From the NCBI GenBank assembly GCA_943736015.1, contig OX031057.1, positions 44,726,501 through 44,790,500 of the forward strand: a stretch of 64,000 nucleotides of DNA. Reading direction: 5' to 3'. Shown here piece by piece: positions 1,593 to 63,394 of this stretch. Made by a program: the position numbers and the translations under genes. This stretch comes from Tridacna crocea. Lineage: Eukaryota; Mollusca; Bivalvia; Cardiida; Cardiidae. The notes beneath the pieces were generated by a model. The model was not told where the DNA came from, did no database searches, and saw only the letters and a program-made list of their open reading frames with translations. Every line of letters begins with the position of its first letter. Positions within the stretch are counted from its first letter, which is position 1.

Positions 1593-1820
1593 TTAACTCT
1601 TTACCAGACGACAAACTTTTAAACTGGTTGAAACTGAAAGCATTCGCAGACGACAAAATCGAAATGACTCAAAAACTGAAATTTGTTCTGGGAAGGCAGA
1701 AAACACTGTGGGAAAAGGAGAAAATGCTGGTTACCAGCATTTTCTCCTTTTCCCACAATGTTTTCTTTAGGCTTCTTTCCTGGGGCCATTATAAGTCGGG
1801 ATTGTGTGGTAAAGAATTAA
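1593..1820 (+). mobile_element. TFB1 fold-back element (reference description)
   Basis: Full copy with TTAA at both ends. Layout: long arm (TTAACTCTTTACCAGACGAC, then a TTTGCAGACGACAAAAT-type block), the central palindrome that turns around at TGGTTACCA, then a short arm ending GTGTGGTAAAGAATTAA. The strand given for each copy is that of the long arm first. The terminal inverted repeat is about 17 bp (TTAACCCTTTACCAAAC). No transposase is encoded, so these are non-autonomous. The TTAA-CCCTTT ends resemble piggyBac-type MITEs (inference). A half palindrome fragment lies just upstream at 1522-1563. Confidence 0.85.
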
Positions 1821-2040
1821 AACACGACAGATATTTGATTGATTATTAAAAAATGATATTTAGTCCTCTTTTTATATTACATGTATGTCGTATTTCATAA
1901 TGTTCTTCTGCGGTTGTTGTACGAACTAATGATAATATATCTGACTCTCTGTCTCTCTCTCCCACATTCTGGCCCTTCGGGCCTCCCTCTGTCTTTTCCT
2001 CGCCTTTTCCAATTCATTTGATTTTCGCCATGTGCTCAAG

Positions 2041-2818
2041 TTAACTCATTATCAAACGACACAATTTTAGACTGGTCCAAACTGAATCGTTTGCAGACGA
2101 CAAACTAAATGTGACTAAAAAATTGAAATTTGTTTTGTTAAGGGTAGAAAACATTGTGGAAAACAGGAGAAAAGGCTGGTTACGAGCATTTTCTCCTTTT
2201 CCCAACAAGATTTTCAAAAGTGTTCTATCTCAGGGTTGTTAAAGGTGGCCCTTCAGATTTTGGGTCGAACATTTTACAAAAATACAAAATCATCATCCTT
2301 ATACTCCCAAAGCCTTTTTAATTTTTATTCATAAAACCCAAGCAGTCGAAACCATCCGACAACAGGAGAAATTAGGGATTTACCACGGCCCAGGTCTACA
2401 CCGAAGGGAAACACGGTCTATTTTCACATGAGCAACTCGCTTATTTACATACAGGAAATACACAGAAGAAGCGTCAGCCATAGCGTCCGAAGAAAACATT
2501 ATAGAGAATAATTATATGTTTGTTATGTTATGGCATTTAAGCATCATTCGTCACGTACCAGTCACTTGACATTCCCTCAATGCTTTTTTGATTTATCGCG
2601 CGAAATCTAAAAATAACCTTAAGAGGTTACGCAGCCTTTGAAGGGAACACCATCAAAAAATATTGGGGGGGAGGGGGATTTTATGATTCTTAGTTACTGA
2701 CGATTTGTATTGTTTTTTTCATATGAATTTCAATTATTTATTTATTCTTTAGATTGGTGATATGTGAAATATCTAAATACCCACCTTTAAAAGTCGGGAT
2801 TGTGTGGTAAAGAGTTAA
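2041..2818 (+). mobile_element. TFB1 copy split by a nested element
   Basis: The copy begins TTAACTCATTATCAAACGAC and ends GTGGTAAAGAGTTAA. Its short arm is interrupted by a 544-bp insertion at 2243-2786; both sides of the insertion continue the TFB1 consensus. Confidence 0.85.
2243..2786. mobile_element. Unknown 544-bp TTAA-inserted element
   Basis: The sequence begins AGGTGG and ends CCACCT, and is flanked by TTAA on both sides (2239-2242 and 2787-2790), replacing a single TTAA in the host TFB1 copy. No coding potential was seen. It includes a G-rich run near 2666-2680. A sequence like its right end (AAATACCCACCT) also occurs near 26808. Confidence 0.75.
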
Positions 2819-3928
2819 TATTTTAGAATGAGTTTATCATGCCAAGCCCTGATATCTCAGACCGCGGGAGAAAAATTTGTGATTGCTGTTAAGAAATTCC
2901 GAAGTGACCGTTACTTTTGACAGATCTATAACATATGAAGTCATTATTCAATTTTTCATTGTCAGAATTCAGTCAAATCTGTGAACAGAAGCCACCGAAG
3001 GGAATTTCCAAAAGTGGCCGTTGTTCACAGATTGACAGTTGTCCATGCACAATATGCACTTCTTGCACTATATTGTGTAGCGAATATAACACTACTACAC
3101 TTGTTGCGTAACCTAGCATGTATGATCTGAGTTTTTCTATCTCTAAAGAAATAAAGCTTGTTTGGTCTCGGTTTATCAATGTTTAAGCGATATTTAAAAG
3201 AAAACAACGTTCCGGGATTTTTTGTTTCATCTGATAAAATTCTGTAACTTTTACACTAACAAAAAACTGAAGAAAAGGACTCAGAAGGTTCCTATGAATT
3301 ATTGGTGAACACGGGCCCAGCAATTTTCCTTGAAACTACTATGCTATGCACTTGGGAAGACATCAGATTATTGCTGGATGATTTCAAGTGAATCAAATAA
3401 TTAGAAATGCTCACTATTTCCACATATCAAACATAACGAGGTTATATTGTATAACGGATGTCAACACCAGCCACAAGGGGGCGCTATTAAAATGACAGGA
3501 AAACGAGGTTTTGAGAAAGTCCGGACCCCTTCGGTCAGTTCATTATAGAAATATGTCCGTGACAGCTGCCCATCACGGCCATTAACGATGTCCGAGACCG
3601 ACCATTTCGGGAGATAAGAAAGTTGAATAAATCCTTGTGTCTGTGAGCTGCCTTTTTGACCGTTCGACTGCTAAACCAATGAAATAAATATGCCGATGAA
3701 ATTAATATAAAAAATTATGAATATGAAACACTCAAAAGCAAAGAGATTAGAGGGGAAAACTCTGAAATTTTAACGTGGTCGTTACATATGAGCTAAACTC
3801 CGTGAAAAAAAGGAACCTTATTAATGCACTTAAAAAAAGTATCGCGGCTGACATATATACTACTCAAACTTTGATAGGGATCACTTACATATTTCTGTAT
3901 GGGTTTATATGTTACAACAGTTTTGCAT
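2819..3928. other. No recognised feature
   Basis: No repeat family of this window and no convincing exon found. Confidence 0.45.
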
Positions 3929-4152
3929 AAACTCTTTACCATGCTGTAAAACTCTAGATTTGTCAAAGTTAAAAGCATTTACTGGCCAAAAACTAAATGC
4001 AACGTGTACTATGCTGTCTGTAATAGGGTAGAAAACATTGTTGAAAAAGGAGAAAATGCTGGTACCCAGCATTTTCTCCTTTTCCAACAATGTTTTCCAA
4101 AGGCTTCTTTCTCAGTGTCTTTAACAGTCGGCATTGTAAGGTAAAGGCTTAA
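3929..4152 (+). mobile_element. TFB1 copy
   Basis: The palindrome turns at TGGTACCCAGCA. Its arms carry the matched variant CATTGTTG/CAACAATG instead of the usual CATTGTGG/CCACAATG. The right end is TTAA at 4149-4152. Confidence 0.8.
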
Positions 4153-4548
4153 AGATCCATTTCCACAGGTTATTTTATTGATCAGTGTGGCAATGTAACA
4201 TATTGTAAAATCACACATGATACATGCCACATATATATTTAGAGTGAATCTTTTAAGGTGATCCCTAGCAAATTTTGAGCAGTATAGATACTGTCCGCGC
4301 AGGCTGACCTTGGCCGAAACTTTTTGGTTTTCGTAATTTTTCTGCATGTCAAAGGACAAGCGCACCTTATGATTCAGTCAGTCCTGAAGCAAAACGAGTT
4401 TTATGGATCAGCAATTGTCTGATCCCTTGCTTGATATTAAGAAACACGCGGATACATTACGCCTCCTTTTTTGCTAGTACGTCATGGCTTATATAGATTT
4501 AGAAATCTCTCATCATGAAAAGTACTAGTATTTCTCTTGGAAAAAAGA

Positions 4549-4777
4549 TTAGCCCATTGCCACACTATCCCTACTTTTGACGACCCTGAGTAAGAAGCCT
4601 TTAGAAAACATTGTTGGAAAAGGAGAAAATGCTGGTAACCAGCATTTTTTCCTTTTCCCACAATGTTTTCTACCCTTCACAAAACAAATTTCAAATTGTC
4701 AGTCTCTTTTATTTTGTTGTCTGTAAATGTTTTCGATTTGGACAAGCCCAAAATTTTGTCGTTTGGTAATAAGTTAA
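4549..4777 (-). mobile_element. TFB1 copy
   Basis: Full-length copy, short arm first (CCACACTATCCCTAC), ending GTTTGGTAATAAGTTAA. It abuts a 76-bp-type palindrome fragment at 4782. Confidence 0.85.
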
Positions 4778-4781
4778 ATCG

Positions 4782-4835
4782 TCGGTTTATTTACAAAACC
4801 TCGTAACTACAGCTTGTAACAAGAAAACTGATGAA
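4782..4835. repeat. 76-bp palindrome family, partial copy
   Basis: Contains GTCGGTTTATTTAC and CCTCGTAACTACAGCTTGT, shared with 12213-12288 and 13306-13380. The second arm is mostly lost. Confidence 0.6.
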
Positions 4836-5034
4836 ATCATTCTAGAAATCACAACAACTGTTACAATTTTCTATTGAAGAAAACACCCAGAAATAGTACA
4901 ATGATATAATAATAATACAAATCTTTCACTCTCCCAAGTATACAAATGTAGATGTATTTTGATAGCGTCAAGTCGAAAAGTTCAAGTTGTGGACCATTGG
5001 ACTTGCAAGCAACATAATACCCTTGAGGGTGTGG

Positions 5035-5165
5035 TTTCTAGCACATCAGCTGGCCTACTGGAAAAATTCCTAATCGGATGGGACGTAACGTCGAGGTCCC
5101 GTGTGATAAAGCCGTACACCGACCGAGCACATTGAAGAACATTTGGCCCGGTTTCACAAAAAATA
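5035..5165. repeat. SINE core-domain fragment
   Basis: GACGTAACGTCGAGGTCCC followed by TACACCGACCGAGCACATTG resembles the core of the SINE at 10762-11050 (GACATTAAACCGAGGTCCC, TACACCGAGCACGTT). No tRNA head is visible here. Confidence 0.6.
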
Positions 5166-5374
5166 CTTTAGTTTATTATCTTACTCAAGTCTACTAATGC
5201 TAAGAGACTGTATTAAAGTTGTCAGATCCTGGGTTGATACTACTTTTTCAGACTTAGGTTTGTAAAATAAATAGACTTAAAAGTTAATTTACTTTGCTAA
5301 AATGCATCTCAGATAAGGAACTCAACTTAAGTCAGAACCTTAGGCCATTAGTAGACTTGAGTAAAACAAGAGAC

Positions 5375-5602
5375 TTAACTCTTTACCACACAATCCCGAC
5401 TATTAACGAACTTGAGAAGGGAGCTTTTGAAAACATTGTGGAAAAGGAGAAAATGCTGGTAAACAGCATTTTCTCCTTTTCCCACAATGATTTCTACCTT
5501 CCCAAGCTGGAAATTCAAATTTTGATTTACATTTATTTTGTCGTCTGAAAATGCTTTCAATTTTGACTAGTCCAATTTTTTTTTCATTTGGTAAAAAGTT
5601 AA
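5375..5602 (-). mobile_element. TFB1 copy
   Basis: Full copy from TTAACTCTTTACCACACAAT to GGTAAAAAGTTAA. It sits between two inverted copies of a SINE core (5108-5165 and 5607-5668). Confidence 0.85.
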
Positions 5603-5606
5603 GTAT

Positions 5607-5668: not shown

Positions 5669-5727
5669 TTAGATCTTTGGTATGGTTATAATAAAACCCT
5701 TTCCGTAAGATCATGGTTCAAGTTATG

Positions 5728-7306: not shown

Positions 7307-7324
7307 ATGAATCGCCGTAATTCA

Positions 7325-10761: not shown

Positions 10762-11050
10762 GACCAGCCTGCATAGCTCAGTTGGTAGAGCCTATGACTC
10801 GTGATCATGAGGGTGTAGGTTCGATCCCCACGGCTGGCCATCTAAAATTACTAGTCTTCGGATGAGACATTAAACCGAGGTCCCTTGTGACGGTGCTATA
10901 CACCGAGCACGTTAAAGAACCAGGCGAAACTTAGGATAGGTTTCGTCCTGTATCTGCACTATCCCCCGTAACAATACTAACATCCTTCAGTGGGCGTCGC
11001 CCATATGGGCAGCCGGAGGCGACGATAGATAAACTCAAATTTAATCAATC
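10762..11050 (+). mobile_element. tRNA-headed SINE
   Basis: The head has an A box (TAGCTCAGTTGGTAGAGC), an anticodon-like loop CTCGTGA between pairable TATGA and TCATG, and a B box (GGTTCGATCCC). The acceptor stem is not properly spaced, so this is not a working tRNA gene. The body contains the conserved GACATTAAACCGAGGTCCC and TACACCGAGCACGTTAAAGA; the tail is ATCAATCAA. It resembles core-bearing SINEs known from molluscs; the exact family is not determined. Confidence 0.8.
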
Positions 11051-32215: not shown

Positions 32216-32259
32216 CGACTTGCTTCGGATACTTCAATACAAAGTTGCATAAAACCCAT

Positions 32260-32484
32260 TCAACCCTTTCCCAAACGATGAATTTTGGACCCTTCCAAAC
32301 CGAAAGAGTTTGCAGACGACAATTTTAGATTGGAAAAAATGCCAGAAATGTCTCAAAAAAGGTAGAAAACACTGTGGGAAAAGGAGAAATTGCTCTTTAC
32401 GAGCAATTTCTCATTTTCCCACAGTGTTCTCAAAAGACTTTTGGTTTGAAAGAGTCCAAAATTTGTCGTTTGGGAAAGGGTTAA
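32260..32484 (+). mobile_element. TFB1 subfamily B copy
   Basis: Differs from the main type by GAGAAATTGCTC...GAGCAATTTCTC at the palindrome centre and by TTGGACCCTTCCAAACCGAA in the long arm. Ends GGGAAAGGGTTAA. Confidence 0.85.
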
Positions 32485-32514
32485 TCTATGTTTTGGGAAA
32501 TGATATCTCCTTAA

Positions 32515-35118: not shown

Positions 35119-35809
35119 AAAAGAAAATGCTAGATACCATGGCTTTGCCACGGAAAATATAGAAAACGTTATTGGTGAATGAGAAGATGCTGGATACCAT
35201 GGTTTTGTCCTAGAAAATGTAGAAAACATTGATGGTGACTGAGAAAATGCTGGATACCATGGCTTTGTTATGGAAGATGTAGAAAACACTGTTGGTGACT
35301 GAGAAAATGCTGGATACCTTAGCTTTGTTATGAAAGATGTAGAAAACATTCTTAGAGAATGAGAAAATGCTGGATAACATAGCTTTGTTATGGAAGATGT
35401 AGAAAACATTGTTGGTGACTGAGAAAATGCTGGATACCATAGCTTTGTTATGGAAAATGTGGAAAACACTGTTGGCGACTGAGAAAATGCTGGGTACTAT
35501 GGCTTTGTTATGGAAGATGTGGAAAACATTGATAGTGACTGAGAAAATACTGGATACCATAGCTTTGTTATGGAAGATGTAGAAAACATTGTTGGCGACT
35601 GAGAAAATGCTGGGTACCATGGCTTTGTTATGGAAGATGTAGAAAACATTATTGGTGACTGAGAAAATGCTGGATACTAGAGCTTTGTTATGGAAGATGT
35701 AGAAAACATTGTTGGTGACTGAGAAAATGTTGGATACTATCGCTTTGTTATGGAAGATGTAGAAAACATTGTTGGTGACTGAGAAAATGCTGCATACCAG
35801 TATTTTCTC
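35119..35809 (+). repeat. 60-bp tandem array derived from a TFB1 palindrome arm
   Basis: About 11.5 units of exactly 60 bp. Each unit contains GTAGAAAACATTG and GAGAAAATGCTGG, which are the TFB1 arm sequences, joined by ATACCATAGCTTTGTTATGG (a small hairpin). The last unit runs into ACCAGTATTTTCTCC, the opposite arm. Because 60 is divisible by three, a minus-strand ORF (35210-35890, 226 aa) reads through as a 20-residue repeat (SSIFSVTNNVFYIFHNKA). I regard that ORF as incidental. Confidence 0.9.
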
Positions 35810-40835: not shown

Positions 40836-43800
40836 TTAGTCACATTTGTAATCTTGAAGATATTTTGGAGGATGCTTTATTCTCACTGGTCTTGTTCGGA
40901 TAGGTTCTTGGTCTTCAGGTGTTTTGGTTGATGTATTTACTATTAGACTGTTCTGATCAGTTTCCTGATGGGAATCTTCTTGATGTCTGGGTGGAGATAA
41001 CTCACGTACCTCTGTACTTGTTTTCGAAGGTCTAATGTGAACTCTGTTCCGGTCATATAAAGAACAATCTTGGTCTTGTACAATGTGGCGTCTTTCCATA
41101 TTTTCTTTAATAAGTCCTTTTTCCCATGGTTCATTTATACGTTTTTTGAAGTATACTGACTGTCCTGGTTTTAAGTTTGTTTGATTTTTGGATTTTTTGT
41201 TAAAATATTTCTTTACAGATTCTTTCCTTCTTTTTCGGGATTCGCTGGGCTGTTTTCTCTCATGAATACTTGGTATTTGGGTACGTAACTTTCTGCCAAA
41301 CATCATTTCCGCTGGGCTTTCATTCGTATCTTTGCGTGGAGTATTTCTTAATTCTAGTAATGCTTCATATTGATCAGTTCTTGTTTGTACACATTTGATC
41401 ATCATGTTTTTAGCTATTTTCACACCTGCTTCCGCCTTTCCATTTGATTGTGGATGATGTGGTGAGGTGATATGGTGTTTTATACCCCACTTCTCAGTGA
41501 ATTTTTTGAATTCTTTGGAATTGAACTGTGGACCTCCATCACTAATTATTCTTGCTGGTATACCGAAACGTGCAAACTTTTTTTTAGCTTCTCAATGACG
41601 CTTTCCGATGTCACCGTCCTTAACAGTTCTATCTCTATGAAATTGGAGAAATAGTCTATTGTCAGTAGATAATTGCGTCCCTTTATTTCGAAGAGATCCA
41701 TTCCTATTTTCTCAAAAGGATATTGACCATCATCGTGTTGATGTATTTCTTCTCTGGTATTATCAGGTTTTCTTTTCATGCAGGTTTCACAGGTTTCAGC
41801 TAATTGTTTAATTTCTGTTTTCATTCCTGGCCAGAAAATTAGACCTTTGGCTCTTCGTAACATACTTTCATAACCAGTGTGTGCACTATGTAAACGCTGT
41901 TTCATGTCTTTTCTTATTGATTTTGGGATTACTACAGCTTCACCCTTTAAGACAATTCCTTCTTCATGACTTAAACAATCCCTCATAGAAAAGTATGGTC
42001 GTATCTCGGCGTCTACATTTTCTTTCTCCTCCTGCCAACCATTTAGTATAGTTTTTATTAGGAGCTGCAAGCTTTTATCCTTAGCTGTTGCTTTTCTAAC
42101 TTCTTCTAATCTGGTATCTGGAAGGTGTTCTAAAATATTTACACCAAAAACTCTTGTTCTAGTTAATTCTTCTTGTTCAGAATTCTCAAAGTTTCTACTG
42201 AGCATGTCACCTATGACTAGATCCACACCTTTTACAAAGTGAAATTCTATATCATAACGGTACAGTTTCATTAAAATGTCTTGCAATCTTTTAGGTGCTT
42301 GACTCAACGGCTTCTTCAGTATGGTCTCTAGTGGTTTGTGATCATTTTCAATTTTCACTTTTCTGCCGTATGTGTATTGGTCAAATCTTTCCAGTCCATA
42401 CAGAACAGCTAGGGCTTCTTTCTCTATTTGTGCCCAGTTTCTTTCTGCGGGTCTTAATGAACGGGAAGCGTATTCTATTGGCCGCCCTCCTTGCATGAGA
42501 ACAGCTCCTACTCCGTTTTTGCTACTATCAACTTGAAGGCATAATTCTTTCTCCGGGTTGAAATACGCCAAGACTGGAGCGTCTGTTAACTTTCTTTTTA
42601 CCTCACAGAAAGCTGTTTCACATTCTTCTGTCCACTTCCAGGGAACATTCTTCCTTGTCAGTCTTCGAATTGGTTCCATAGTTGAAGATAAACTGGGGAG
42701 AAATTTTGCCATGCACTGTACAACACCGCACAAACGTTTAACTTCTGTTACGTCTTTTGGTGATGTCATTTTAAGAACAGACTTTATTCTTGTTTCATCT
42801 GGTAAAATTCCTTCTGATGTGATTTTATGTCCATGAAATTTTATTTCTTTTCCAACAGCTTTCTTTTCATTGTTTAGAATGATGTTTCTTTCCACACATC
42901 TTTTCTGTAGTTGTTCTAGTTTAAAGTCATTGTCTTTTTTAGCAGTAGCTTCATCACTTCCACAGCCCACAATCATGATGTCATCTGCAATAGTAAATGT
43001 GCCACTTAGTCCACTCAGAGCTTCATGTAATTTTCTCTGAAAAATTTCGCTGGACACTTTGAGCCCAAAAGGCAACCGTAGCCATCTGTACCTTCCAAAC
43101 GGTGTTATCATTGTTGTTAACAGACTTGATTCTTCATCTAATTTGCAATGCCAGTAGGCTTCTTTGATGTCTAATTTTGTGAAGATTTTGGCATTATTTA
43201 ATTCTGGAAGAATGTCTTCGAAAACAGGGAGTTTATAGTGTTCTCTCATTAAAACTTGATTCAAAGGTTGTGGGTCGATACACAGTCTAAGTTTCCCATT
43301 AGGTTTCGTTACCACAGCCATCTGACTTACCCAGGGTGTAGGTTCAGAGACTTTTTTCAGTATGCCTCGTTCAGTCAAGTTGTCAAGTTCCATTTTCACG
43401 GTGTCCTTAATTGCTAATGGCACTTTTCTGCATGGCAATGCTTTTGGTACAGCGTTTTTATCTATTTGAAGGTGGACTTCCCCCAACTCACCAATATCAG
43501 TTGTAATTTTAGATATGAATCTTTCTGTGTTGAAAGTGACTAATTTCATCTCCTGAATTGTTTTAAGGCCTAGCAAGCATTCAAACTTGTTTGGTACTAC
43601 TATAAATTCAACACTGTAGTCCATATTGTCGCATGGATTTGTCATTTTCAGTTTAGTAGTTCCTAATGGTTTCAATGCAGACTTATTCCACATACGCAAA
43701 TTAATGCTTGTTTTCCTCACTTGGTTTTCTTTGACATATTTCTTGCAAATAGTGTTAATATCGGCTGCACTATCCAACTGAAAATTAATTTCGCAGTTGT

Positions 43801-43954
43801 TCACTCTCATTTTTGCACAAACACGGCTTTTCTGTTGTGTATTTACAGCTGCAAGCCAACAATCATCCTCACTATCAGAGTGATTGTTATTTTCTTCGGT
43901 GTTTACGGAATGTACTTTCTTGCACATTTTCTTGAGTGGTTTCTTCCTTTGCAT
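40836..43954 (-). pseudogene. Pol region of the Gypsy element (protease, RT, RNase H, integrase)
   Basis: The region reads, in transcript order, through a retropepsin-like segment (LDSAADINTI), reverse transcriptase (LRLPFGLKVSSEIF and IADDIMIV), RNase H (VDSSKNGVGAVLMQ), and integrase with a zinc-binding N-terminus (HTGYESMLRRAKG) and a catalytic core beginning near DLFEIKGRNY. It ends with a basic RPVRIKHPPKYLQDY tail. The order is diagnostic for Ty3/Gypsy. It is treated as a fossil with about one break. Confidence 0.9.
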
Positions 43955-44670
43955 GCATTACATGTTTTGCCCCACGCTGGACACTCTTCTTTTTTTAGTT
44001 CATGTTTATATCCACAGAAATTACAAGTTTTCTTCTTTTGACTTGAGTTTTTCAGTTCTGTATGTGGAGTGGATTTCTTGTCACTATTCACTTTCTTTTT
44101 CTTTTGAGTCACTTTGTGGACTGTTTTGTCTCTCATTTCATTGACATGTTTATTTGATTGTTCATATGCTCTACATATCTGTATAGCTTTGTCCAATTTC
44201 AAGTTTTCTTCTCTCAATAGAAGTTCTTGTAGTTTGCCACCAGAGCTAAAAACTATTTTGTCCCTCAACATTCTATCTTTCTCTTCAAAGTTGCAGGTTT
44301 CAGCTCTTTTTCTTATTTCAGTAAGAAAAGATTCAAAACCACTTGAATTTTCAAATGGTACTGACCAAAATCTGTGAGTTTCCAAGACTTCATTTTTACG
44401 GGGGTTACAATATCCCTCTATTTTTCTCATTACTTCCTCAGGGTTCGTTTTTCCATCAGCATTTTCCCATTCAAACTGGTCATAAATTTCGATAATACTT
44501 GGTCCTGCACAGTGTAATATAACAGCTACCTGAGTTTCATCCTCCTTTTCCGATATACCGCTTGCAGTCAAGTATATTTCCATCTGCTGTTTCCATTTCC
44601 TGAAATTCTGAGATGCATTTCCATCGGTAATGTTTAATTCTTCAGGCTGCTTGAACATGGGCGCTGCCAT
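43903..44670 (-). CDS. Gag of the Gypsy element (fossil virus-like element)
   Basis: This is a 255-residue Gag-like region. It opens MAAPMFKQPEELNI and ends in two zinc-knuckle-type clusters (CNFCGYKH and CNACKGRNHSRKC), as in metazoan Gypsy lineages resembling the K02A2.6 group. It lies directly inside the 5' LTR and overlaps the pol region. Lineage within Gypsy is inferred from overall look only. Confidence 0.85.
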   Translation of the reverse strand: MAAPMFKQPEELNITDGNASQNFRKWKQQMEIYLTASGISEKEDETQVAVILHCAGPSIIEIYDQFEWENADGKTNPEEVMRKIEGYCNPRKNEVLETHRFWSVPFENSSGFESFLTEIRKRAETCNFEEKDRMLRDKIVFSSGGKLQELLLREENLKLDKAIQICRAYEQSNKHVNEMRDKTVHKVTQKKKKVNSDKKSTPHTELKNSSQKKKTCNFCGYKHELKKEECPAWGKTCNACKGRNHSRKCARKYIP

Positions 44671-52408: not shown

Positions 52409-52600
52409 CAAACTCATTACCACACAAGGAAATTTTAGACTTGTCCAAATTGAAAGCATTTGCAGACGAAAAAGGGTAGAAAACACTGTGGGAAAAGGAG
52501 AAAATGCTGGTTACCAGCATTTTCTCCTTTTCCCACAGTGTTTTCAAAGGGCTTCTTTCTCAGGGTCGTCAAAAGTAGGGATTGAGTGGTAATGGGTTAA
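52409..52600 (+). mobile_element. TFB1 copy, short long-arm
   Basis: A deletion after GCATTTGCAGACGA; palindrome perfect with the matched CACTGTGG/CCACAGTG variant. Confidence 0.85.
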
Positions 52601-52860
52601 TGTAATTGCGAAAAGTATCGATTCAGGTAAGCCTACGCAGTATGCACAGTATGCGTAGGCTGACCTGAACTGAAACTTTTCGCTATTGGTCGATTTTCTG
52701 GATGTCAAAGAACCAGTGTACTTCAAGCATCAATAAGTTGTGATACAAAACGGCTTCCAGGGATGTATAGTAAACGCTTTGATAACTTGCTTACAACCAT
52801 GCGTCACGGAGATGCATTAAGCTACCTTTTGCCAGAGCATGAATCAATGGTTAATGCGCA
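52601..52860. mobile_element. DRC element
   Basis: TTCAGGTAAGCCTACGCAG pairs with CGTAGGCTGACCTGAAC, matched changes; ends near CTTTTGCCAGAGCATG. Confidence 0.65.
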
Positions 52861-55014: not shown

Positions 55015-55778
55015 TCAATCACGTGACATACAGTTCCAGATTCGCCGTCTTTGCACAGGGATAAAAAGTGTTAACGCGTTCCCACATAAAACAAATATAC
55101 CAAGAAGCCAGAACCATTTACTGGGATCTGTGTCAACTAACTGTGACCAAATTGTGTTCCAAACAAGCGCCCCTGCATTACCCCCAGCCCCTATAAAGCC
55201 GGCAACGACCCCTACTCTCCGCGGATGTACATATGGGACAATGGCAAAGGTTGATCCCTCTGACATTTGTACGAAAAGGCTGAAAGCTATCATGGCAACG
55301 ATGGCGGTTGGAATAGTTGTCATTTGACTGAATATAATGAGCAAAATGCCTTCTCCTGTAAGGCAAATAATGTGAGCAAGTAATCGACCGGGTATTTTTA
55401 GGTATTTTCTCATCAGATCTGAAAAAATACCACCAAGAGCTCTTGCGAAAAGATTCATTAGACCAAACAGTGATGCGATAAGACTGGCTGTGTTTTGAGT
55501 CAGTATACTGCATTCATTCAGGTCATCATCATCAGAACTTGCGACAGTAGTTGTCATCATGGTTGCATTTGTCATGTTTGTCGCAACAACGTTGTCGGCA
55601 CCTTCAACACATCCCTCTTTTTTGAATCTGTACAGGAAGTACAAGTTCATGACGGTGTTCACTGCAATTTCTACCCCGAAACATAGTCCATACTGTATGA
55701 CGAGAACAGCAATGGTGACAATCATCCAGCCGTCAAAACTTTCACACAAGCCCTCTTTCTTCTCCCCGGCCTCGATAG
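55015..55778 (-). CDS. Nitrate transporter coding exon 4 (residues 307-560)
   Basis: It is entered from acceptor TTTTCATGCATTTAG and ends at TGA. It carries helices 7-12 and the second glycine signature. Between helices 7 and 8 there is an outward-facing loop with two N-glycosylation sequons (NMT at 374, NAT at 377), a methionine/threonine run and four aspartates in a row. The C-terminus is basic (QRRRIWNCMSRD). Confidence 0.92.
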
Positions 55779-58700
55779 CTAAATGCATGAAAAAAAGCCA
55801 TCTATATATATCATGACAAAAACGGGTTTCACGCATCTTCGCAATAATATGATTTTTACGGGTCAGGAATAGAAGCCTTTTGAAAACATTGTGGGAAAAG
55901 GAGAAAATGCTGGTAACCAGCATTTTCTCCTTTTCCCACAATGTTTTCCACCCTATCATAGACAGAAATCGTCTTTTCAGCAAGAGTTGAATTGTCGTCT
56001 GCAAATGCTTTCAATTTGGTCCAGTCCAAAAGTTTGTCGTTTGGGAAAGGTTTAATGGACTGGTCCTTGACTTGCAGAAAAAAGTGACCAATAGCAAAAG
56101 TTTTGACCAGTAATGCTTAATGCAGGCTGATATGGGCCAATACTTTTTGCAGATGCTTTGAACATCCTTTTCGAACAGTAATACTCGCTTAACTCATTAC
56201 CAAACGACAAAATTTTAGGTTTGTCCAAATCAAAAGCATTTGCAGACGACAAAATAAAAGTGACTGAAAATTTGAAATTTGTTTTGTGAAGGGTAGAAAA
56301 CATTGTGGAAAAAGGAGAAAATGCTGGTTACCAGCATTTTCTCCTTTTTCCACAATGTTTTCTGGAGGCTTCTTTCTCAGGGTCGTCAAAAGTAGGGATT
56401 GTGTGGTAATGGGTTAAGAATATATAATTACATAAATTGCAATGTTAGGCTTTTTCAATAAAGTTTTTACAAAGTAGAATACTGAGTACTTTTGAAAACT
56501 TTTATAGCGATAAAGACAATCCGTTGTTTTCCTTTTTCTCATATTTGGCTTTGTGCCTTTTTTTTTTTACCCAAAGTCAGCTGTTGGAATATTCACTGCC
56601 TAATGTGGAGGACTTTGTTCGTCTTGACGACATGGCGATTTTAAAAAAACATTGAAAAAGGGACTAGTGTTTTAGTGCTTGAATTGACAATCCAAATTGT
56701 TGCTTCGCATTTTCCTCCAAACATGTGATAATATTTTAAGTACACATTATATTCATACGGAATATAAAAAAAATGCCTTGAAATTGTATATACTCCTTGC
56801 TTGTGAGAAAATTTTATATATTGCGAGACTAAACTTAGGTCAATAACTACGACGAGAACTAAATTGCTTCATGTTCAAAATTGGGCAAAAAACCCATTCA
56901 TTTATTGACAATTCGAACATGAGAAGAATTTTCCTTTAATGAGAGAAAATGGGTAAAAACCTTCTCTTTTTTTCAAAAATGGCGAATAAATAGTTTGACG
57001 TAAAATTTTGACCAATCAAATCTGGAACCAATCTTACAAGGGCTGGCTTTTGGCCGTCAGGTACAAATTAAGAGATGCAGATAGAAACAGAAAGAAAAGA
57101 GACTAACCTTTCGGCGTTGAAATTACGTATTTTTTCTGGTTTCCTCCAATTCCACCAGAGACTTTAATACCTGTGTAAAAACGGAAACCAATATATAGCA
57201 TACATTTTGACGAACAAGTTAATCTTTACATTATCACTTCGTTTTTTGATGAACCAAAGGTTTTATTTCCCGACGTCTAAACATGTATGTACTCAAATTA
57301 AGTATCACAATAACTAAAGATGACGTCAGTCATAGTTTAGCATCTTGCATTGAACAGTGCACATTCAAGAATAGTCTACACATATATTTCAATCTGATCT
57401 TGATCTACAGATCTTATAATTTACTCTCGTGGCAATGAGTTCATTCATTACCAAACAACAAAGTTTTAGGTTTGTCCAAATCGAAAGCATTTGCAGACGA
57501 CAAAATGAGGGTGACTGAAAATCTGAAATTTGTTTTGTGATGGGTAGAATACATAGTGGGAAAAGGAGAAAATGCTGGTTACCAGCATTTTCTCCTTTTC
57601 CCACAATGTTTTCTAAAGGCTTCTTTCTCAGGGTCTTCAAGAGTAGGGACTGTGTGGTAATGGGTTGAACCAAAGGAATCCTTAAATCTACAGAAAGAAA
57701 ATTTTAATGCGCACCTTTCTCTGAGTTATCAAATGCCTTATTGTCAAACACCTCCTTTGAATTCTTTTCTCCCACTTGTTCATCCTCCACACAGCCACCT
57801 TCTTCATATTTCTTGGCTTCATTGATGAACACGTCATTGGAAGGTAGTTTTCGCTTTGACCAATGCCCTTGTGGACAATCGTCCGCTGTCCATAGAATTG
57901 ACACCCCTGGAAAACAAAAAGTCAAACATGTACTTACTCCTTGCCAGATTGGTAGCAGACTTTTAAAAGTGTCCAAATCAATACAATTTGCAAACAACAA
58001 ATTAAATTTAGCCTTATGATATGAAAAATCTTCCAAAGGGTAGACAGCATCACAGGAAAAGGAGGAAATATTTGTTTCCAAATTTTGTTTCCTTTTGTCA
58101 CAATCCTTCATCACAGCGTCTGTTGTTTAACTCTATCAGAGACAAATTATAAACCTGTCCTCTTCCCATTACGTAACTCTTTTCCAAACGACACAATTTT
58201 AGGTTTGTCCAAATCGAAAGCATTTGCAGACGACAAAATAAAAGTGACTGAAAATTTGAAATTTGTTTTCTGACGGGTAGAAAACATTGTGGGAAAAGGA
58301 GAATGTTAGTTTACCAGCATTTTCTACTTTTTCCACAATGTTTTCTAAAGACTTCTTTCTCAGGGTCGTCAAAAGTAGGGATCGTGTGTTAATGACTTAA
58401 AATACCATTTATTGAAAATGGAAACATTTTTTACCTTATTGGCTTGACAACACAAGCGGACGGCATAGATCAAAGATCAGACTGCACGTTCTGTGCAGTG
58501 ATCTATGCCGTGAGTAAAAGCCTTGTTTTCAGCAATGGCGCTAAAATGGTTGAACATGGAATCAGTTGCTGAAGCAACTCATTGAATAAGCTTCAAGAAG
58601 GTTTCTTTTATCTTTACAAGTGAAGAAAAAAAAATGTTGGAAAAGTAGCATTACTGGTGACCGTACGGGTCCTTCTATGGGGCTATCAAACAGATAATAG

Positions 58701-60228
58701 TTTGGTAGAGTTAGCTAAAAATCCACTCATTCTAGCAAATCGTCAGCTGCTTTTTCACGAAGTCAAATTTATAATATAAATTTTTACTCAAGAACCTAAG
58801 CTGAAGATGGTGCTTTATTCAGTTGGTTGCTTCATGCAAGTGGTTGCTCGAATTATTGTAAAGTTTAGACCAGAATAGCTCACTCGGTGGAAATGTACAA
58901 CATCGTATACCTCATTCAAAGATTTTAAGGGTTAATTTTTTTTTAGCGTGTATCAAACTATGAACTGTGTGTACGCCCTGAATGAAATCTATCCTATGCT
59001 ACTCATCGGCCTGCAATACGCGAAAAGGGGCATTCGGACATTTGCGTAAGGTGTTGTTTAGGATCAGCCTGCGCAGTCCGTCCAGGTAAACCCGAAGCGA
59101 CACTTTCCGTTCTTTTGTAATCTATTTTGCGCAAGTCTACTGTATATACGATAAATCAAATTTATAAAGTCTTAAAGTGCCTAGTCCGATTAGCCTGCGC
59201 TGACTACGCAGACTGATTCGACACGACACCTTACTTAAACCTTCGAATGCCGCGTTTCGCGTGTTGCAGGCTAAATTGTAACATGTCTTGCAACACGTGA
59301 AAAGGGTCATTCGGACATTTGAGTAAAGTGTTGACTCGGATCAGCGTGTGCAGTCCGCACAGGCTAATCCGAAACGACACTTTCTGATTTTATGTGATTT
59401 TCGGTTTTGCGGAAGTCTACTCTAGCACAAAATCTAATGTAGTCGTAAAGTGCCGTCTCGGGTTAGCCTGCGCGGGCTGCGCAGGCTAATCCGGGACGAC
59501 ATTTTACGCAAATGTCCGAATGCCCCTTTTTACGTTTTGCAAGCCAATTATAATATATTCTTACCAATGGTAATGGCGACAACAGCCGGTACCAGGACAG
59601 CTAGTTTCCAAGCCAGGAATTTATCAGCGCCAAAAACTTTCATCAATTCAAACAAGGCAGGCATGATGATGAAAGTAAAACCGCCACCCAGATTTCCCCA
59701 GCCCCCGACGAGAGCATTGGCAGTGCCTACGATCTTCACGTTGAACATGGCAGAGGTCCAGAACTGGCAAGGTATGAATGTACCACCAAGGATACCAATA
59801 CACAATCTTACAATGATCAGTCCAGTTTGGTTTTTCACGAGTCCAGAAAAGGCCATTGGTATAGACCCAACCAGCAGAAGACCGGCCATGACTCGTTTTG
59901 GTCCAAACCTGTCGCAAAGCGGACCCACAACGACTCGTACCAAAATGGTGGCTGCGATACTAGCTATACCAGAATTAGCAACTTCTTTCTTGCTGAGTCC
60001 AAGTTCTTCTCTGATTGTTGGTATAAGAGGTTGGAGCCCGAACCAAGATGTGAACGCAATAAAGAAGCAGAACCAGGAGGCGTGGAAGGCGCGCATGTGC
60101 GGCCTCTGGATGCTGAACAATCTGAAGGATTTTGCCTTTCCAAGATCATCTTCTACAATACCAGGTGCCTGGATCTTTTTCACGCACCTAAAGCAGCCAC
60201 TGCTTTCCTCGCTATCTCTGTCAGCCAT
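55015..60228 (-). CDS. NNP-family (NRT2/NarK-like) nitrate/nitrite transporter, four coding exons
   Basis: The minus-strand exons 59565-60228, 57715-57906, 57108-57170 and 55015-55778 total 1683 nt and join in phase (each intron phase 1) into 560 residues plus a TGA stop. The product is a 12-helix major-facilitator protein of the plasma membrane. Seen: helix 1 near residues 48-70; MFS loop motif GPLCDRFGPKR at 102-112; first NNP glycine signature GGWGNLGGG at 175-183; the NRT2-type block YGLCFGVEIAVN near 336-347; second MFS motif RALGGIFSD at 419-427; second NNP signature GAGGNAGAL at 503-511. Family knowledge: these proteins move nitrate or nitrite, usually with protons. The substrate here is inferred. 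A hydrophilic loop of about 95 residues separates the two six-helix halves. The start context (CAAAATGG) is good, and a 3' splice site (CTTCCATTTCAG) just upstream suggests a further 5' UTR exon. I saw no polyadenylation signal close behind the stop; the first AATAAA on this strand lies near 54490 inside a TFB1 copy. Confidence 0.9.
55830..56055 (-). mobile_element. TFB1 copy in transporter intron 3
   Basis: Palindrome intact (turn TGGTAACCA); the short arm is worn; ends TTTGGGAAAGGTTTAA. Confidence 0.8.
56189..56416 (+). mobile_element. TFB1 copy in transporter intron 3
   Basis: TTAA to TTAA. Arms carry the matched change GTGGAAAAAGG/CCTTTTTCCAC. Confidence 0.88.
57108..57170 (-). CDS. Nitrate transporter coding exon 3 (63-nt microexon, residues 286-306)
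   Basis: A 63-nt exon lies between acceptor TTTTTACACAG and donor GTTAGT, phase 1 on both sides. It encodes IKVSGGIGGNQKKYVISTPK, still in the cytosolic loop. Because it is a multiple of three it could be skipped without changing frame. It is called from splice sites, phase and position only, as this loop is not conserved in the family. Confidence 0.7.
57439..57668 (+). mobile_element. TFB1 copy in transporter intron 2
   Basis: CATTCATTACCAAACAAC to GGTAATGGGTTGAA; it ends about 46 bp from the exon 2 boundary. Confidence 0.8.
57715..57906 (-). CDS. Nitrate transporter coding exon 2 (residues 222-285)
   Basis: It is entered from acceptor TTTTTGTTTTCCAG and left at donor GTGCGC. It encodes GVSILWTADDCPQGHW, matching the family's end of helix 6 with a DDCP motif, then a charged lysine- and glutamate-rich segment (KKYEEGGCVEDEQ). 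The donor is a weak but valid GT. Length 192 nt, phase 1 at both ends. Confidence 0.8.
57945..58131 (+). mobile_element. Degenerate TFB1 copy in intron 1
   Basis: GTGTCCAAATCAATACAATT and a worn palindrome (GGAAAAGGAGGAAATATTTG). Confidence 0.5.
58174..58400 (+). mobile_element. TFB1 copy in intron 1
   Basis: TAACTCTTTTCCAAACGAC to TGTTAATGACTTAA; left arm shortened at GGAGAATGTTAG. Confidence 0.8.
58456..58510. repeat. P65 palindrome in intron 1
   Basis: GCGGACGGCATAGATC with partner GATCTATGCCGTGAG. Confidence 0.75.
59007..59273. mobile_element. GC2H element in intron 1
   Basis: GGCCTGCAATACGCGAAAAG to CGCGTGTTGCAGGCT; second hairpin diverged. Confidence 0.75.
59284..59545. mobile_element. 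GC2H element beside the exon 1 splice donor
   Basis: TGTCTTGCAACACGTGAAAA to TACGTTTTGCAAGCCA, directly following another copy in the same orientation. Confidence 0.8.
59565..60228 (-). CDS. Nitrate transporter coding exon 1 (residues 1-222, first base of 222)
   Basis: The exon opens with ATG (MADRDSEESSGCF) and runs through the six helices of the N-terminal half. It ends ACCATTG before donor GTAAGAAT. It encodes the first MFS motif and the first glycine signature. The N-terminal 45 residues are hydrophilic and cysteine-containing, hence cytosolic by the usual topology. The reading frame continues a few codons past the donor to a stop, but the phase-1 join to the next exon restores a conserved TM6 end (AITIGVSILW). 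Confidence 0.9.
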
Positions 60229-60356
60229 TTTGAAAATTCAACAGAAAAACTGAAATGGAAGAAAACGTCAAGTTATAATTTTGAAAAGTATAATTTGGTG
60301 GAAGACACAGTCTTGAATGCTCATATAAATAATCATGACTGCTGCTTCACTTTTCC

Positions 60357-60588
60357 TTAACTCTTTACCAAACTACAAAATTTTTACAGACTGGACCAGA
60401 TTATAAGTACTTGCAGACGGCAAAATAAACGTAACTGAAAAATTGAAATTTGTTTCCAGCACGGTATAAAACACTGTGGGAAAAGAAGAAAATGCTGGTT
60501 ACCAGCATTTTCTCCTTTTCCCACAATGTTTTCAAAAGGCTTCTATCTCATGGTCGAAAAAACCAGGGTTTGCTAGGTGAAGGGTTAA
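60357..60588 (+). mobile_element. TFB1 copy just upstream of the transporter start
   Basis: TTAACTCTTTACCAAACTAC to GGTGAAGGGTTAA; lies about 130 bp from the start codon, in the 5' UTR intron or promoter. Confidence 0.85.
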
Positions 60589-60849
60589 GACTATGTACTA
60601 ACCTATTTCCTAGGTCGGTATTTACTAACCTTTCTTTGGTCTTATTTTCCAGAATTTTCTATATATAAGAGTAAAGATTGAAATTTCGTATTTCGTTAAA
60701 GAATTAAAATGAAAAGGCTTGGATTTTAAACTTAGGTTGGTTTAAATGAAGATTTCCTTGCTTTTGAGTTGAAATTAGTCAAAAGCAGGGATGAGATATT
60801 TTTCTTGGGAGGTCGTGCTTTCATAGAAAATTGTATTTCATTTAATCCT
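60589..60849. other. FB5-like scrap, otherwise unrecognised
   Basis: GGTCGGTATTTACTAACC then CAGAATTTTCTATATA resembles one FB5 end. Confidence 0.45.
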
Positions 60850-60939
60850 TTGAAAACATTGCTTTCGAAATCCAAAATTGCATTCGAAAACATTCTCCTT
60901 CAGGGTCGTAAAATATGGAGTTGGTTGGTATACGATTAA
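60850..60939 (+). mobile_element. TFB1 right-end fragment
   Basis: TCCTTCAGGGTCGTAAAATA to TTGGTATACGATTAA; shares TTAA with the next copy. Confidence 0.6.
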
Positions 60940-61140
60940 CCCTTTACCCACAATATCGTCTATTAAACGAACAGAGGGAAACGCCCTTTGAAAGCATTGT
61001 GGTGGAGAAGGAGAAAATGCTGCTGATCAGTGCATTCTCCTTTAACCGCAATGTTTCTATTCCCATGGTAGACAAATATCATATTTTAAGTGGCATTCAG
61101 AGTGTTGCTTGCAAATGCTTTGATTTTAGGCAAGTATAAT
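60936..61140 (-). mobile_element. TFB1 copy, diverged
   Basis: TTAACCCTTTACCCACAATA onward; palindrome worn; right end lost. Confidence 0.65.
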
Positions 61141-61161
61141 GTATATATATTTTTTCGTCTG

Positions 61162-61391
61162 TTAACCCTTTACCAAACAATCCCTGGTTTTTATGACCCT
61201 GAGACCGAAGCCTTCTGAAAACAATGTGGGAAAAGGAGAAAATGATGGTAACCAGCATTTTTCTTCTTTTCCCACAGTGGTTTCTAAGCTGCTGGAAACA
61301 AATTTCAATTTCTGAGTTAAGTTTATCTTGTCGTTTGCAAGTGCTTTCAATTTGGACCAGTTTAAAATAGTGTCGTTTGATAAAGGGTTAA
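61162..61391 (-). mobile_element. TFB1 copy
   Basis: TTAACCCTTTACCAAACAAT to TTTGATAAAGGGTTAA. Confidence 0.85.
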
Positions 61392-61678
61392 AGAATTAAA
61401 TAACGAAAAAGCTTGCACAACATCATACGTAAAAAAAAGATACGGGAGAAGAAAGAAAGTATTGAAAACCAGTCATTTCGAACGGATCTTCCTTCAAGGC
61501 CGCATGTCAGCTTGACTAGACTTTTTTAAAGGAACAAATCGACTCTATGCATACAAATATCTTTTTATCAAAAACGATTTCAATAGATACTAGCCCATCC
61601 ACCTCAAGTTCAAATCATAATCTCTCTATAGATTTTTTTTTTATCCCTTGCTATGTCAGGGTGAATATAGGAGGCTTT

Positions 61679-61746
61679 GCGGACGGTATAGATCAAGATC
61701 AGACTGCACAGAACGTGCAGTCTGATCTTGGATCTATAGCGTCCGG
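61679..61746. repeat. P65 palindrome
   Basis: GCGGACGGTATAGATC and GATCTATAGCGTCCGG around a perfect GACTGCAC...GTGCAGTC core. Confidence 0.8.
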
Positions 61747-61849
61747 TTGTTGAGTCAAGCCTTGATGACAAAAATCTCTCTGACTTCATGTAGAATGTAT
61801 TTCAAACTGGCGAAAGAAGCCTGACTTAAATAATCTGGCGCCTCAAGAG

Positions 61850-62101
61850 TTAACCCTTATCCTACGAAATAACTGAAATCAATTTTTTTTTTTTTTAAAT
61901 CTGATTGTAAAACCCCAAAATTTCCTATTTCAAAGGTATTTTAGGGGAGGTTAAGGGATGGGAGGGGGAGACTATATGCCTTTATCGAACAGTGTAGATC
62001 AAAGATCAGACTGCACGTTTTGTGCAGTCTGATCTTGATCTACGTAGTCCGCTAAAGGTTAGCGAGTCGCGCTTAGCAGCTTGTGGGTTAACCCTTTCCC
62101 A
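61850..62101. mobile_element. P65-bearing TTAA-ended element
   Basis: TTAACCCTTATCCTACGAAA at left, CGCGCTTAGCAGCTTGTGGG-TTAA at right. It contains a P65 palindrome (61985-62052). The right TTAA (62098-62101) is shared with the following TFB1-B copy. It shows that P65 can be part of a TTAA-ended element about 250 bp long. Confidence 0.75.
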
Positions 62102-62315
62102 AACAACCAATTTTGGACTCTTCCAAACCAAAAGAGTTTGCAGACGACAATTTTAGATTTGCAGAAAATGCCAGAAAGTTCTCAAAAAGGGTAGAAAACA
62201 CTGTGGGAAAAGGAGAAATTGCTCGTTACGAGCAATTTCTCCTTTTCCCACAGTGTTTTCAAAAGGCTTTTACTGCAGACACGTAAAAACCAGGGCTTGT
62301 TTGGGAAAGGGTTAA
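62098..62315 (+). mobile_element. TFB1 subfamily B copy
   Basis: TTAACCCTTTCCCAAACAAC to GGGAAAGGGTTAA; perfect palindrome around TTGCTCGTTACGAGCAA. Confidence 0.88.
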
Positions 62316-62638
62316 AGAAGATGAGCCGGCTATGCATGTAATCCGATTTCAGACGCATCACGGGTGTTTTTTAGCGGGGCGAAATATTTCAGACCCCGTG
62401 TGGGGCATTCTTACAATCATTATTATCTTCATATGGAAATTTGCGGAACAAATCTTAACGTAACGTTATCACACGTGCTGGTGGGTTATCTTTGGAAAAC
62501 ATAGAGGGAAAAGAGGGAAAAGAAGCAGTCGCTTGTAACGGCAGCATTGGTTTGTAATATGGTACATGTATTTTTCTTTTCGTCTTTCTCCAATTTTTCG
62601 CAGAGAAGTGAGTGGCTTTTCGATAAAAGCCGCATGTG
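62316..62638. other. No recognised feature
   Basis: Nothing recognised. Confidence 0.4.
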
Positions 62639-62853
62639 TTAACTCTTTACCACACAATCTCGAGTTTGAACGACCGAAAGTAAATACTAGTCTGTAGAAA
62701 GCCTTGTGGGAAAAGGAGAAAATGCTGGTACCAGCATTTTCTCCTTTTCCCACAAGGTTTTCTACACTTTCACGGACAAGTATAATTATACTAGCCAATT
62801 TGTCAAAAGCTTTCAACTTGTACCAGTCTAAATTTTGTCGATTGGTAAAGAGA
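62639..62853 (-). mobile_element. TFB1 copy
   Basis: TTAACTCTTTACCACACAAT to GATTGGTAAAGAGATTA; arms carry the matched CCTTGTGG/CCACAAGG variant. Confidence 0.82.
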
Positions 62854-63135
62854 TTACTGACTATTGAATACCATTGTAGTGTCAAATAAGCCAAATATCT
62901 ATCTACTAAAATTCTTTCAGATTTTTTTTTTGTGATGTCATTGTACGAAGAAGTGAATGGACGTTGCGGGCAGTAGTCACTGTTCGCATAAAATTTTATG
63001 GTCAGTTAATCAAACGTCTGTTTTTCCTTTGTATTTTTATTTTTTATGGGGATAAAACTGACACAGTTTTTTATAACAAGATTTGTAACTCTTAAATGTC
63101 ACGACGGACTAACTTGAAATCTGTGTCATTTGCCT
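62854..63135. other. No recognised feature
   Basis: AT-rich; nothing recognised. Confidence 0.4.
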
Positions 63136-63394
63136 GAACTTATTACCAAACGACAACATTTTAGGTTAGTCCAAATCCAAAGCATTTGCAGACGACAAAA
63201 TAAAAGTGACTGAAATTTTGAAATTTGAAGGGCAGAAAACATTGTGGGAAAAGGGGAAAATGCTGGTTACCAGCTTTTTCTCATTTTCCCACAATGTTAT
63301 CTAAAGCCTTCTTTCTCAGGGTTGTCAACAATGTTTTCTAAAGGCTTCTTTCTCAGGGTTGTCAAAAGTGGGAATTGCGTGGTAATGGGATAAC
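63136..63394 (+). mobile_element. TFB1 copy with duplicated short arm
   Basis: A segment with GCCTTCTTTCTCAGGGTTGT is present twice in tandem. Ends GGTAATGGGATAA. Confidence 0.8.

Follow-up and report, generated by a model that had tools for sequence, protein, structure and literature searches.

Mostly inherited, partly surplus: matched palindrome arms in a mobile element of Tridacna crocea

Within single copies of an abundant mobile element of Tridacna crocea, the two arms of an internal palindrome resemble one another more closely than they resemble the arms of other copies. The matched arms are mostly inherited, and descent explains most of the effect; once the founder changes are in place, each arm mostly decays on its own, with 621 one-sided changes as against 39 mirrored changes that are not subfamily letters. 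In addition, copies that hint little at a common ancestry carry slightly more mirrored double changes than expected, an excess found at two of the three pairs tested genome-wide and in a contrast within the sample of copies, and less well supported after a terminal-repeat control. Inherited founder changes, independent decay and rare hairpin-templated copying together make the best reading of these facts, one that we hold tentatively.

The element and its palindrome

The element, which we take to be a TTAA-target MITE, perhaps of the piggyBac or Kolobok type, is ~229 bp long and is flanked by TTAA; it is too short to have room for a transposase gene. The window (the whole 64-kb stretch of DNA that was analysed) contains 63 copies that do not overlap and together take up 12.4 kb (E<1e-8), and the arm matching discussed here spans positions 1700-63300, with no strand assigned. 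A typical copy (1591-1825, + strand) reads TTAA, terminal repeat, long left flank, palindrome, short right flank, terminal repeat, TTAA. The terminal TTAAs (profile columns 4-7 and 229-232) pair in 84-94% of copies, and 16 of 19 consensus positions of the terminal inverted repeats are complementary. The palindrome itself is 67 nt long with 33-bp arms (columns 111-177, centre 144, column i pairing with 288-i); its consensus stem is perfect over 33 bp, with a one-base spacer. By exact-pattern count, its inner 31 nt occur in perfect form 191,599 times in the genome. No description of this element, or of a similar case, was found in open PubMed Central papers, which does not prove that none exists.

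Arm matching and its inheritance

An earlier note on this DNA had claimed that variants differ between copies and that the arms of a given copy yet match. The four arm pairs that it quoted are all present in the sequence, and the claim stands: in 175 unselected copies (from the window and from 19 loci retrieved by their positions), arm identity is 0.881 within copies and 0.845 between copies, with a permutation maximum of 0.853. The window alone gives 0.885 and 0.847 (49 scorable copies; maximum of 2000 permutations 0.862); at least one mirrored change is present in 19 of these 49 copies. Mirrored double changes number 143 against 31.4 expected from column composition in a set of 253 copies, a few of them window copies counted twice because locus L001 overlaps the window, and against 8-39 when partners are slid by 1-6 columns in the same set. 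(L001 was omitted from later sets, the cut-offs of each analysis excluded copies whose palindrome or flank was too incomplete, and locus L163, which lies on a different contig, contributes no mirrored double to the sample.) "Often", the earlier note's word for the matching, needs some qualification: the mirrored changes are real, but one-sided changes are commoner (621, as compared with 123 mirrored, in the 175 copies).

Subfamily letters account for 84 of the 123 mirrored changes, about two thirds, and two of the four quoted examples bear such letters. The 3929 example (copy at 3925-4157, + strand, palindrome at about 4031-4097) has pair 122 mirrored as G>T/C>A; it is enclosed by a 435-bp composite repeat (3847-4286, + strand) amplified together with it. 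Of 4577 candidates for this repeat 40 were scored, namely this one and 39 elsewhere, which are 93-95% identical over stretches of about 148-590 of the query. All eight examined copies of this composite family, to which the 3929 copy belongs, carry G>T at pair 122. The 52409 example (52409-52607, + strand, palindrome at about 52479-52545) likewise bears a subfamily letter, T>C/A>G mirrored at pair 118: the T>C is found in 44 of 199 near-full copies and travels with diagnostic flank letters. The 56189 variant, G>A/C>T at pair 124 (copy at 56186-56421, + strand, palindrome at about 56296-56362), is at chance level in the sample, being mirrored in 2 copies and one-sided in 37, with about 1.7 mirrored expected. 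Only the 62639 example (62634-62856, - strand, palindrome at about 62697-62762, centre base missing) is private, a single mirrored A>C/T>G at pair 117. An older subfamily, a six-copy flank cluster represented at 62085-62319 (+ strand), combines mirrored pairs 118, 136 and 141 with no one-sided founder change; a second window copy, at 32259-32491 (+ strand), has the same three mirrored pairs.

Among founder changes, the mirrored share is higher than rare copying would produce by itself. Founders defined by their flanks show, at a cut of 0.20, 4 changes that are mirrored and 3 that are one-sided, with flanks differing by 23-26% in two clusters (mirrored to one-sided 2:2, 1:2 and 4:2 at cuts of 0.12, 0.16 and 0.24). 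This proportion favours a close rival to the reading that we prefer, one with a real chance of being right: selection in source copies, whose mobilisation would need a well-paired stem, the surplus doubles then marking many small source lineages. The slow divergence of the palindrome points the same way. Overall, its divergence is about a third of that in the flanks (0.066 and 0.179, respectively), and in copies selected by flank words its conserved columns diverge half as much (0.032, as compared with 0.071 and 0.062 in the flanks), which rare two-way copying between arms cannot cause; in older copies the low divergence may, however, be partly a detection bias, the profile having been seeded on palindrome hits.

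A palindrome conserved above its flanks would also suit gene conversion between copies, by which it would be moved as a cassette onto unrelated flanks and kept near consensus. The perfect cores are potential donors, and T>C at pair 118 is found with two or more flank backgrounds that differ greatly. However, the association of 118C with flank letters has no visible fall-off with distance (columns 18, 74, 99, 198, 202 and 225), and mirrored donors would be required at the outset; we regard such conversion as very improbable.

The earlier note had also raised a hairpin RNA, and the perfect 33-bp consensus stem speaks in its favour. Most changes are one-sided, however, and one-sided transitions leave G.T 229 times and A.C 235 times (173 and 159 without the subfamily pairs), with no preference for G.U; at gathering thresholds, Rfam recognises no family in the window other than tRNA. 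An RNA role is scarcely credible, and any coupling of the arms seems to act on DNA.

Coupling between nearest flank relatives

What may remain beyond descent was gauged by contrasting a copy's own arms with arms exchanged between that copy and its nearest flank relative. Over all 33 pairs the contrast is 0.0159 (bootstrap 0.0109-0.0207; 149 copies, a few of them lacking a scorable relative), and over the 27 pairs that remain without the six subfamily pairs it is 0.0083 (0.0050-0.0120); slid controls range from -0.0016 to 0.0020. With relatives picked on fewer flank columns, the corresponding values are 0.0200 and, outside the subfamily pairs, 0.0063 (0.0018-0.0106). Setting a copy's arms simply against the arms of its flank neighbours had yielded a difference of -0.0135 at K=3, perhaps because nearest neighbours are less mutated, and the balanced contrast was used in its place.

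The terminal repeats supply a sobering control. The partners in each of their pairs lie about 200 bp from one another, and the coupling between them is as strong as that in the palindrome (0.0219, 0.0129-0.0309; 16 pairs, nearest relative), with 41 mirrored changes against 24 expected at pair 11/225 and 9 against 1.9 at pair 14/222. The terminal repeats form no such hairpin. Given their coupling, choosing nearest flank relatives does not fully remove descent; confidence in templated copying is lowered by this result, and two rivals gain from it. One is source selection, for the terminal repeats, as the two ends of the element, are likewise obliged to match. The other is inheritance through subfamilies alone, every mirrored pair being inherited and the residual coming from sources with consensus-like flanks. 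To such hidden siblings flank-based tests of ancestry are blind, and the largest flank cluster is nearly the global consensus, its sources being correspondingly hard to separate; most of the mirrored changes are, moreover, known subfamily letters. Against inheritance alone stand the residual contrast outside the subfamily pairs, whose bootstrap bounds lie above 0.005 or, on fewer flank columns, above 0.0018, and several mirrored doubles at pair 134 (134G) on flanks that differ strongly (identity to the nearest of the same type 0.62-0.70); we consider it unlikely. When the leading pairs are dropped, coupling in the palindrome stays at 0.0065 (0.0037-0.0098) and that of the terminal repeats falls to 0.0006 (-0.0037-0.0052), although the latter vanishes only without three of the 16 pairs, chosen post hoc, and the two intervals then overlap.

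Mirrored doubles at three pairs, genome-wide

Exact patterns allowed mirrored doubles to be counted across the genome at pairs 134, 135 and 138. At pair 134, A>G together with T>C occurs as 20 mirrored doubles (882 one-sided and 191,599 perfect; about 1 expected under independence), and the non-mirrored control yields 10 over two combinations (binomial P = 0.0002 for mirrored against control). At pair 135 there are 215 doubles, with about 9.5 expected from 2702 one-sided changes. Complementary changes make up 42 of the 50 doubles listed out of these 215, or, among the places listed and without a young clade of 12 near-identical copies, 30 of 38 as compared with 33% expected by type (P = 1e-8); in the non-mirrored control (65 over two combinations), 25 of 65 are complementary and 26 are expected. 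The 42 consist of 15 A>C, 16 A>T (12 of them the young clade) and 11 A>G; transversions are thus mirrored too. Pair 138, in contrast, has no surplus: 29 of the 50 doubles listed out of 311 are complementary, as compared with 52% expected by type (P = 0.23), and a uniform copying rate of 2-4% does not fit there. One-sided type spectra come from the first 100 places listed, and listed letters were counted by eye, except for the 65 control doubles of pair 135, which were recounted by script.

The ancestry of the doubles was judged by their flanks, for which 36 of the 42 listed mirrored doubles at pair 135 and 19 of the 29 at pair 138 were fetched. Doubles of the same type share 0.046-0.068 of rare flank letters, as compared with 0.041 for different types; the young clade (the 135T group) shares 0.506, so the test works. 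Strongly sharing pairs are correspondingly scarce: 0/190 for 134G, 1/105 for 135C, 0/10 for 135G, 0/6 for 138T, 1/105 for 138A and 3/2239 between types. This is a difficulty for source selection, under which compensated sources should amplify to families, whereas at 134, 135C, 135G and 138 doubles of the same type have barely more rare flank letters in common than doubles of different types. On the other side, the young 12-copy clade itself bears one mirrored pair, and the differences between pairs (135 high, 138 none) would be natural if some positions were under sequence constraint. The event that mirrors a change is local, since 44 mirrored copies also bear 95 one-sided changes.

Two further signatures were sought within the palindrome. 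Mirrored small deletions are absent: 14 copies have deletions on the left, 14 on the right and 2 on both sides, the latter not at mirror positions, in a comparison of little power. At the centre base, where an inversion of the spacer would turn T into A, T>A makes up 34 of 64 changes, as compared with 33% in the flanks (P = 0.0008), 8 of the 34 belonging to the composite family, a confounder.

Source subfamilies were named in the earlier note as an explanation that might account for the matched arms in full. They do so for the two thirds given above and not for the rest, because coupling is still seen when nearest flank relatives are compared, also without the six subfamily pairs, and because pairs 134 and 135 have more mirrored doubles than two kinds of control would allow, in copies that give few hints of common ancestry. 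The note's own interpretation, that the arms are corrected against one another or that the hairpin is needed, draws support from that residual coupling and from the surplus at pairs 134 and 135; pair 138, the coupling of the terminal repeats and the failure of its RNA version count against it.

A tentative account of arm-to-arm copying

The preferred reading combines inheritance, decay and rare copying. Source lineages altered both partners of a pair (118, 122, 136, 141 and others) and passed these on to their subfamilies. For the copying, the palindrome would fold during replication or repair, one arm occasionally templating the other and a mutation thereby becoming mirrored, with quasipalindrome template switching and mismatch repair in an extruded cruciform as candidate routes. 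Templated copying may also have given rise to the founder changes, and spreading is probably restricted to founders whose stem pairs well enough for the copy to move. It is possible, if doubtful, that at some pairs a few percent of arm mutations, transversions included, are mirrored onto the other arm in a site-dependent way (135 high, 134 intermediate, 138 none), making the palindrome a natural mutation-accumulation record of arm-to-arm copying. If so, the site dependence would reveal something of the workings of hairpin-templated synthesis in the host.

The wider interest lies in how compensatory pairs are read: they are usually taken as proof of selection on structure. Here such pairs can be counted in copies that are presumably mostly neutral, so that mutation, selection in sources and descent are separable by numbers, and the element family offers a cheap test of whether position, base or spacer influences hairpin-templated copying.

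Comparison with known systems

As in the stems of structured RNAs, paired columns of the palindrome change together above chance; unlike those stems, they do so without wobble preference. The element resembles other TTAA-target MITEs in length (about 229 bp), in the TTAA at either end, in having a short terminal inverted repeat and in its very high copy number, with the difference that its long inverted repeat (33-bp arms, one-base spacer) is internal rather than terminal. In the literature, template switching is reported both to homogenise the arms of inverted repeats and to produce compensatory pairs (PMC8604942, PMC8794818, PMC3820800), and mutations of this kind at quasipalindromes are among the closest known parallels. 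The present case differs from them in that the substrate is a single mobile-element palindrome, its inner part perfect in 191,599 copies, and in that most of its changes are unmirrored.

The element and its surroundings

The genome that holds the window (1.049 Gb in 31 contigs, 18 of them large) is heavily populated by TFB1, a ~229-bp element whose two ends both read TTAA. It has a short terminal inverted repeat and an off-centre 67-nt palindrome that is perfect in the consensus (33-bp arms and a one-base centre). Searching ~281 kb at E<1e-8 with a profile built from 20 window copies picked by palindrome hits gives 253 non-overlapping copies (a few are counted twice, one fetched locus, L001, overlapping the window), 63 of them in the window. 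In 19 loci of 10 kb chosen by position (the 3-Mb point of each of the 18 large contigs, plus the 13-Mb point of the first contig), 156 copies cover 29.9 of 190 kb, and two of these loci have none at E<1e-8. Genome-wide, exact matches number 31,884 for a 29-base flank word and 191,599 for the 31-base palindrome core when it is perfect apart from a free centre base; the reversed control of each gives 0. A single family thus makes up a very large share of the genome.

The unit of a tandem array at 35122-35799 (11.3 copies of 60 bases) includes the palindrome words AGAAAATGCTGG and AGAAAACATTGTTGG. On the minus strand lie open frames judged by eye to resemble LTR retrotransposon protease, reverse transcriptase and integrase (40836-44670) and two that match the major facilitator transporter PF07690 (59548-60228, E 9e-20; 55015-56004, E 7e-6, under the curated cut-off), presumably exons of a nitrate-transporter type gene. 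Rfam places a tRNA gene on the plus strand at 10767-10839.

Arm matching and subfamily descent

Each palindrome column i (111-177, centre 144) pairs with column 288-i; a change is mirrored when both partners differ complementarily and one-sided when only one does. Arms match better within than between copies, as the earlier note held: identity is 0.881 against 0.845 among 175 copies, above the permutation maximum of 0.853, and 0.893 against 0.878 (maximum 0.885) without the six pairs that carry subfamily letters. That the arms often match holds within a limit, however: one-sided changes outnumber mirrored ones fivefold (621 to 123).

Descent explains most of the arm matching, because subfamily letters account for 84 of the 123 mirrored changes. 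Among 199 near-full copies (drawn from a sample of 312 that includes 60 flank-word loci and 7 composite-family loci), 44 mirror T>C at pair 118, accompanied by flank letters such as G at column 74 (31/43, against 4/119 otherwise); pair 122 G>T is found in 8 of 8 copies examined of a 435-bp composite repeat (window 3847-4286; 40 scored of 4577 candidates), which took up an element copy and then multiplied; and pairs 136 and 141 co-occur in a third group. The four copies put forward as examples of matched arms divide accordingly: 3929 and 52409 carry subfamily letters; in 56189 the mirroring does not exceed chance (at pair 124, 2 copies are mirrored, 27 changed on the left only and 10 on the right only); and 62639 has one private pair (117), mirrored in 1 copy and one-sided in 1 on the left and 3 on the right.

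Between the consensus palindrome and five flank-only clusters of at least 4 copies (cut 0.20) there are 4 mirrored and 3 one-sided differences, with two positions ambiguous; the ratio is 2:2, 1:2 and 4:2 at other cuts, and two clusters diverge from consensus at 34/145 and 41/156 flank columns. In the 59 flank-word copies (54 with palindrome), divergence at conserved palindrome columns is 0.032, below the 0.071 and 0.062 of the flanks, which suggests that the palindrome is kept in mobile sources, through selection or conversion among copies. Two-way arm correction, as the agent of this conservation, predicts mirrored and reverted changes in about equal number; it is rejected because, 118C aside, these copies have just 4 mirrored changes against 104 one-sided.

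Residual coupling

Descent is perhaps not the whole explanation. The arm contrast, which compares a copy's own arms with arms exchanged with its nearest flank relatives and so cancels age, stands at 0.0224 when all copy pairs are taken and at 0.0159 (bootstrap 0.0109-0.0207) when only the nearest relative is used (149 copies), while partners slid by 1-3 columns give at most 0.0026 in size. With a mean flank identity of 0.82, these are relatives rather than siblings. Omitting the six subfamily pairs leaves 0.0106 and 0.0083 (0.0050-0.0120), respectively; source subfamilies, which the earlier note had set against its own reading as a full explanation, thus cover most mirrored changes and leave this remainder.

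Genome-wide counts show a clear surplus of mirrored doubles at pairs 134 and 135, absent at 138. Pair 134, scored for A>G on one arm and T>C on the other, has 20 mirrored doubles where ~1 is expected under independence, with 882 one-sided changes and 10 non-mirrored doubles over two combinations. Pair 135 (any change) has 215 doubles of all types, against 9.5 under independence from 2702 one-sided; the non-mirrored control (partner of 133) has 65 over two combinations. Among 50 places listed of the 215 (contigs 1-4), 42 are complementary (15 C/G, 16 T/A, 11 G/C) and 8 are not. Pair 138 has 311 doubles, against 110 from 9192 one-sided, but is complementary in 29 of 50 places listed of the 311, near the 52% predicted from the type spectrum. 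The non-mirrored controls, too, lie above the independence expectation, by a factor of about two to five, which fits unequal copy ages.

Sibling tests drew on every mirrored double at 134 (20), on 36 mirrored doubles together with 4 unmirrored ones at 135, and on 19 mirrored ones at 138. By permutation, within-type flank identity is not in excess for 134G (P 0.90), 135G (0.59), 135T excluding a young clade (0.09), 138T (0.71) or 138A (0.76), though a source with consensus flanks would be missed. The exception, 135C (P 0.019), has members about as similar to each other (0.709) as to background (0.701). Rare flank letters are shared slightly more within types (mean 0.046-0.068) than between (0.041), and at 0.506 in the 135T group; two pairs of mirrored doubles are sibling-like (L111-L117, L149-L153).

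The young clade, 12 of the 16 T/A copies at pair 135 (loci L128-L143, L143 among them), carries mirrored A>T in near-identical copies at separate places (nearest neighbours 0.97-1.00 identical in flanks), and the element family has therefore probably moved recently.

Terminal repeats as a control

Sixteen terminal-repeat pairs, ~200 bp apart and forming no such hairpin, have a nearest-relative contrast of 0.0219 (0.0129-0.0309; 98 of 148 copies scored), about equal to the 0.0200 that the palindrome gives when relatives are chosen identically; matched founder changes are therefore not unique to the hairpin. One slid-partner value in the terminal repeats is also high (0.0186). Mirrored changes exceed expectation at pairs 11/225 (41 against 24.2), 14/222 (9 against 1.9) and 20/216 (7 against 1.7), so both element ends changed together in source lineages. 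With five relatives, the terminal-repeat contrast is 0.0135, falling to 0.0067 without pair 11/225 and to 0.0006 (-0.0037 to 0.0052) without pairs 11, 14 and 20, whereas 27 pairs of the palindrome give 0.0065 (0.0037-0.0098); the counts behind these last two values are 7 mirrored against 219 one-sided changes and 23 against 395. The palindrome's extra coupling is modest and depends on pairs omitted post hoc in both regions.

Mechanism and known systems

Founder pairs passed on by descent supply most matched arms, and the arms afterwards decay largely independently, both of which the copies show; the remainder may reflect rare DNA-templated copying from one arm to the other. Such copying is our best account of that remainder, held at slightly under an even chance; it stood at an even chance until the terminal-repeat control lowered it. 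A simple form of it sits poorly with pair 138, with the coupling of the terminal repeats, with the lack of mirrored deletions among the changes found and with an ambiguous signal of centre-base inversion. One role that the earlier note had offered for the hairpin, that of a hairpin RNA, is unsupported.

In a limited search of the open literature, no account came up of a mobile-element palindrome whose 191,599 perfect cores might serve as a record of template switching. Template switching itself is already known: published accounts describe arm homogenisation and spacer inversion in yeast (PMC8604942), mutations that extend arm identity, also in yeast (PMC3820800), and compensatory changes produced by such mutations in RNA genes (PMC8794818).
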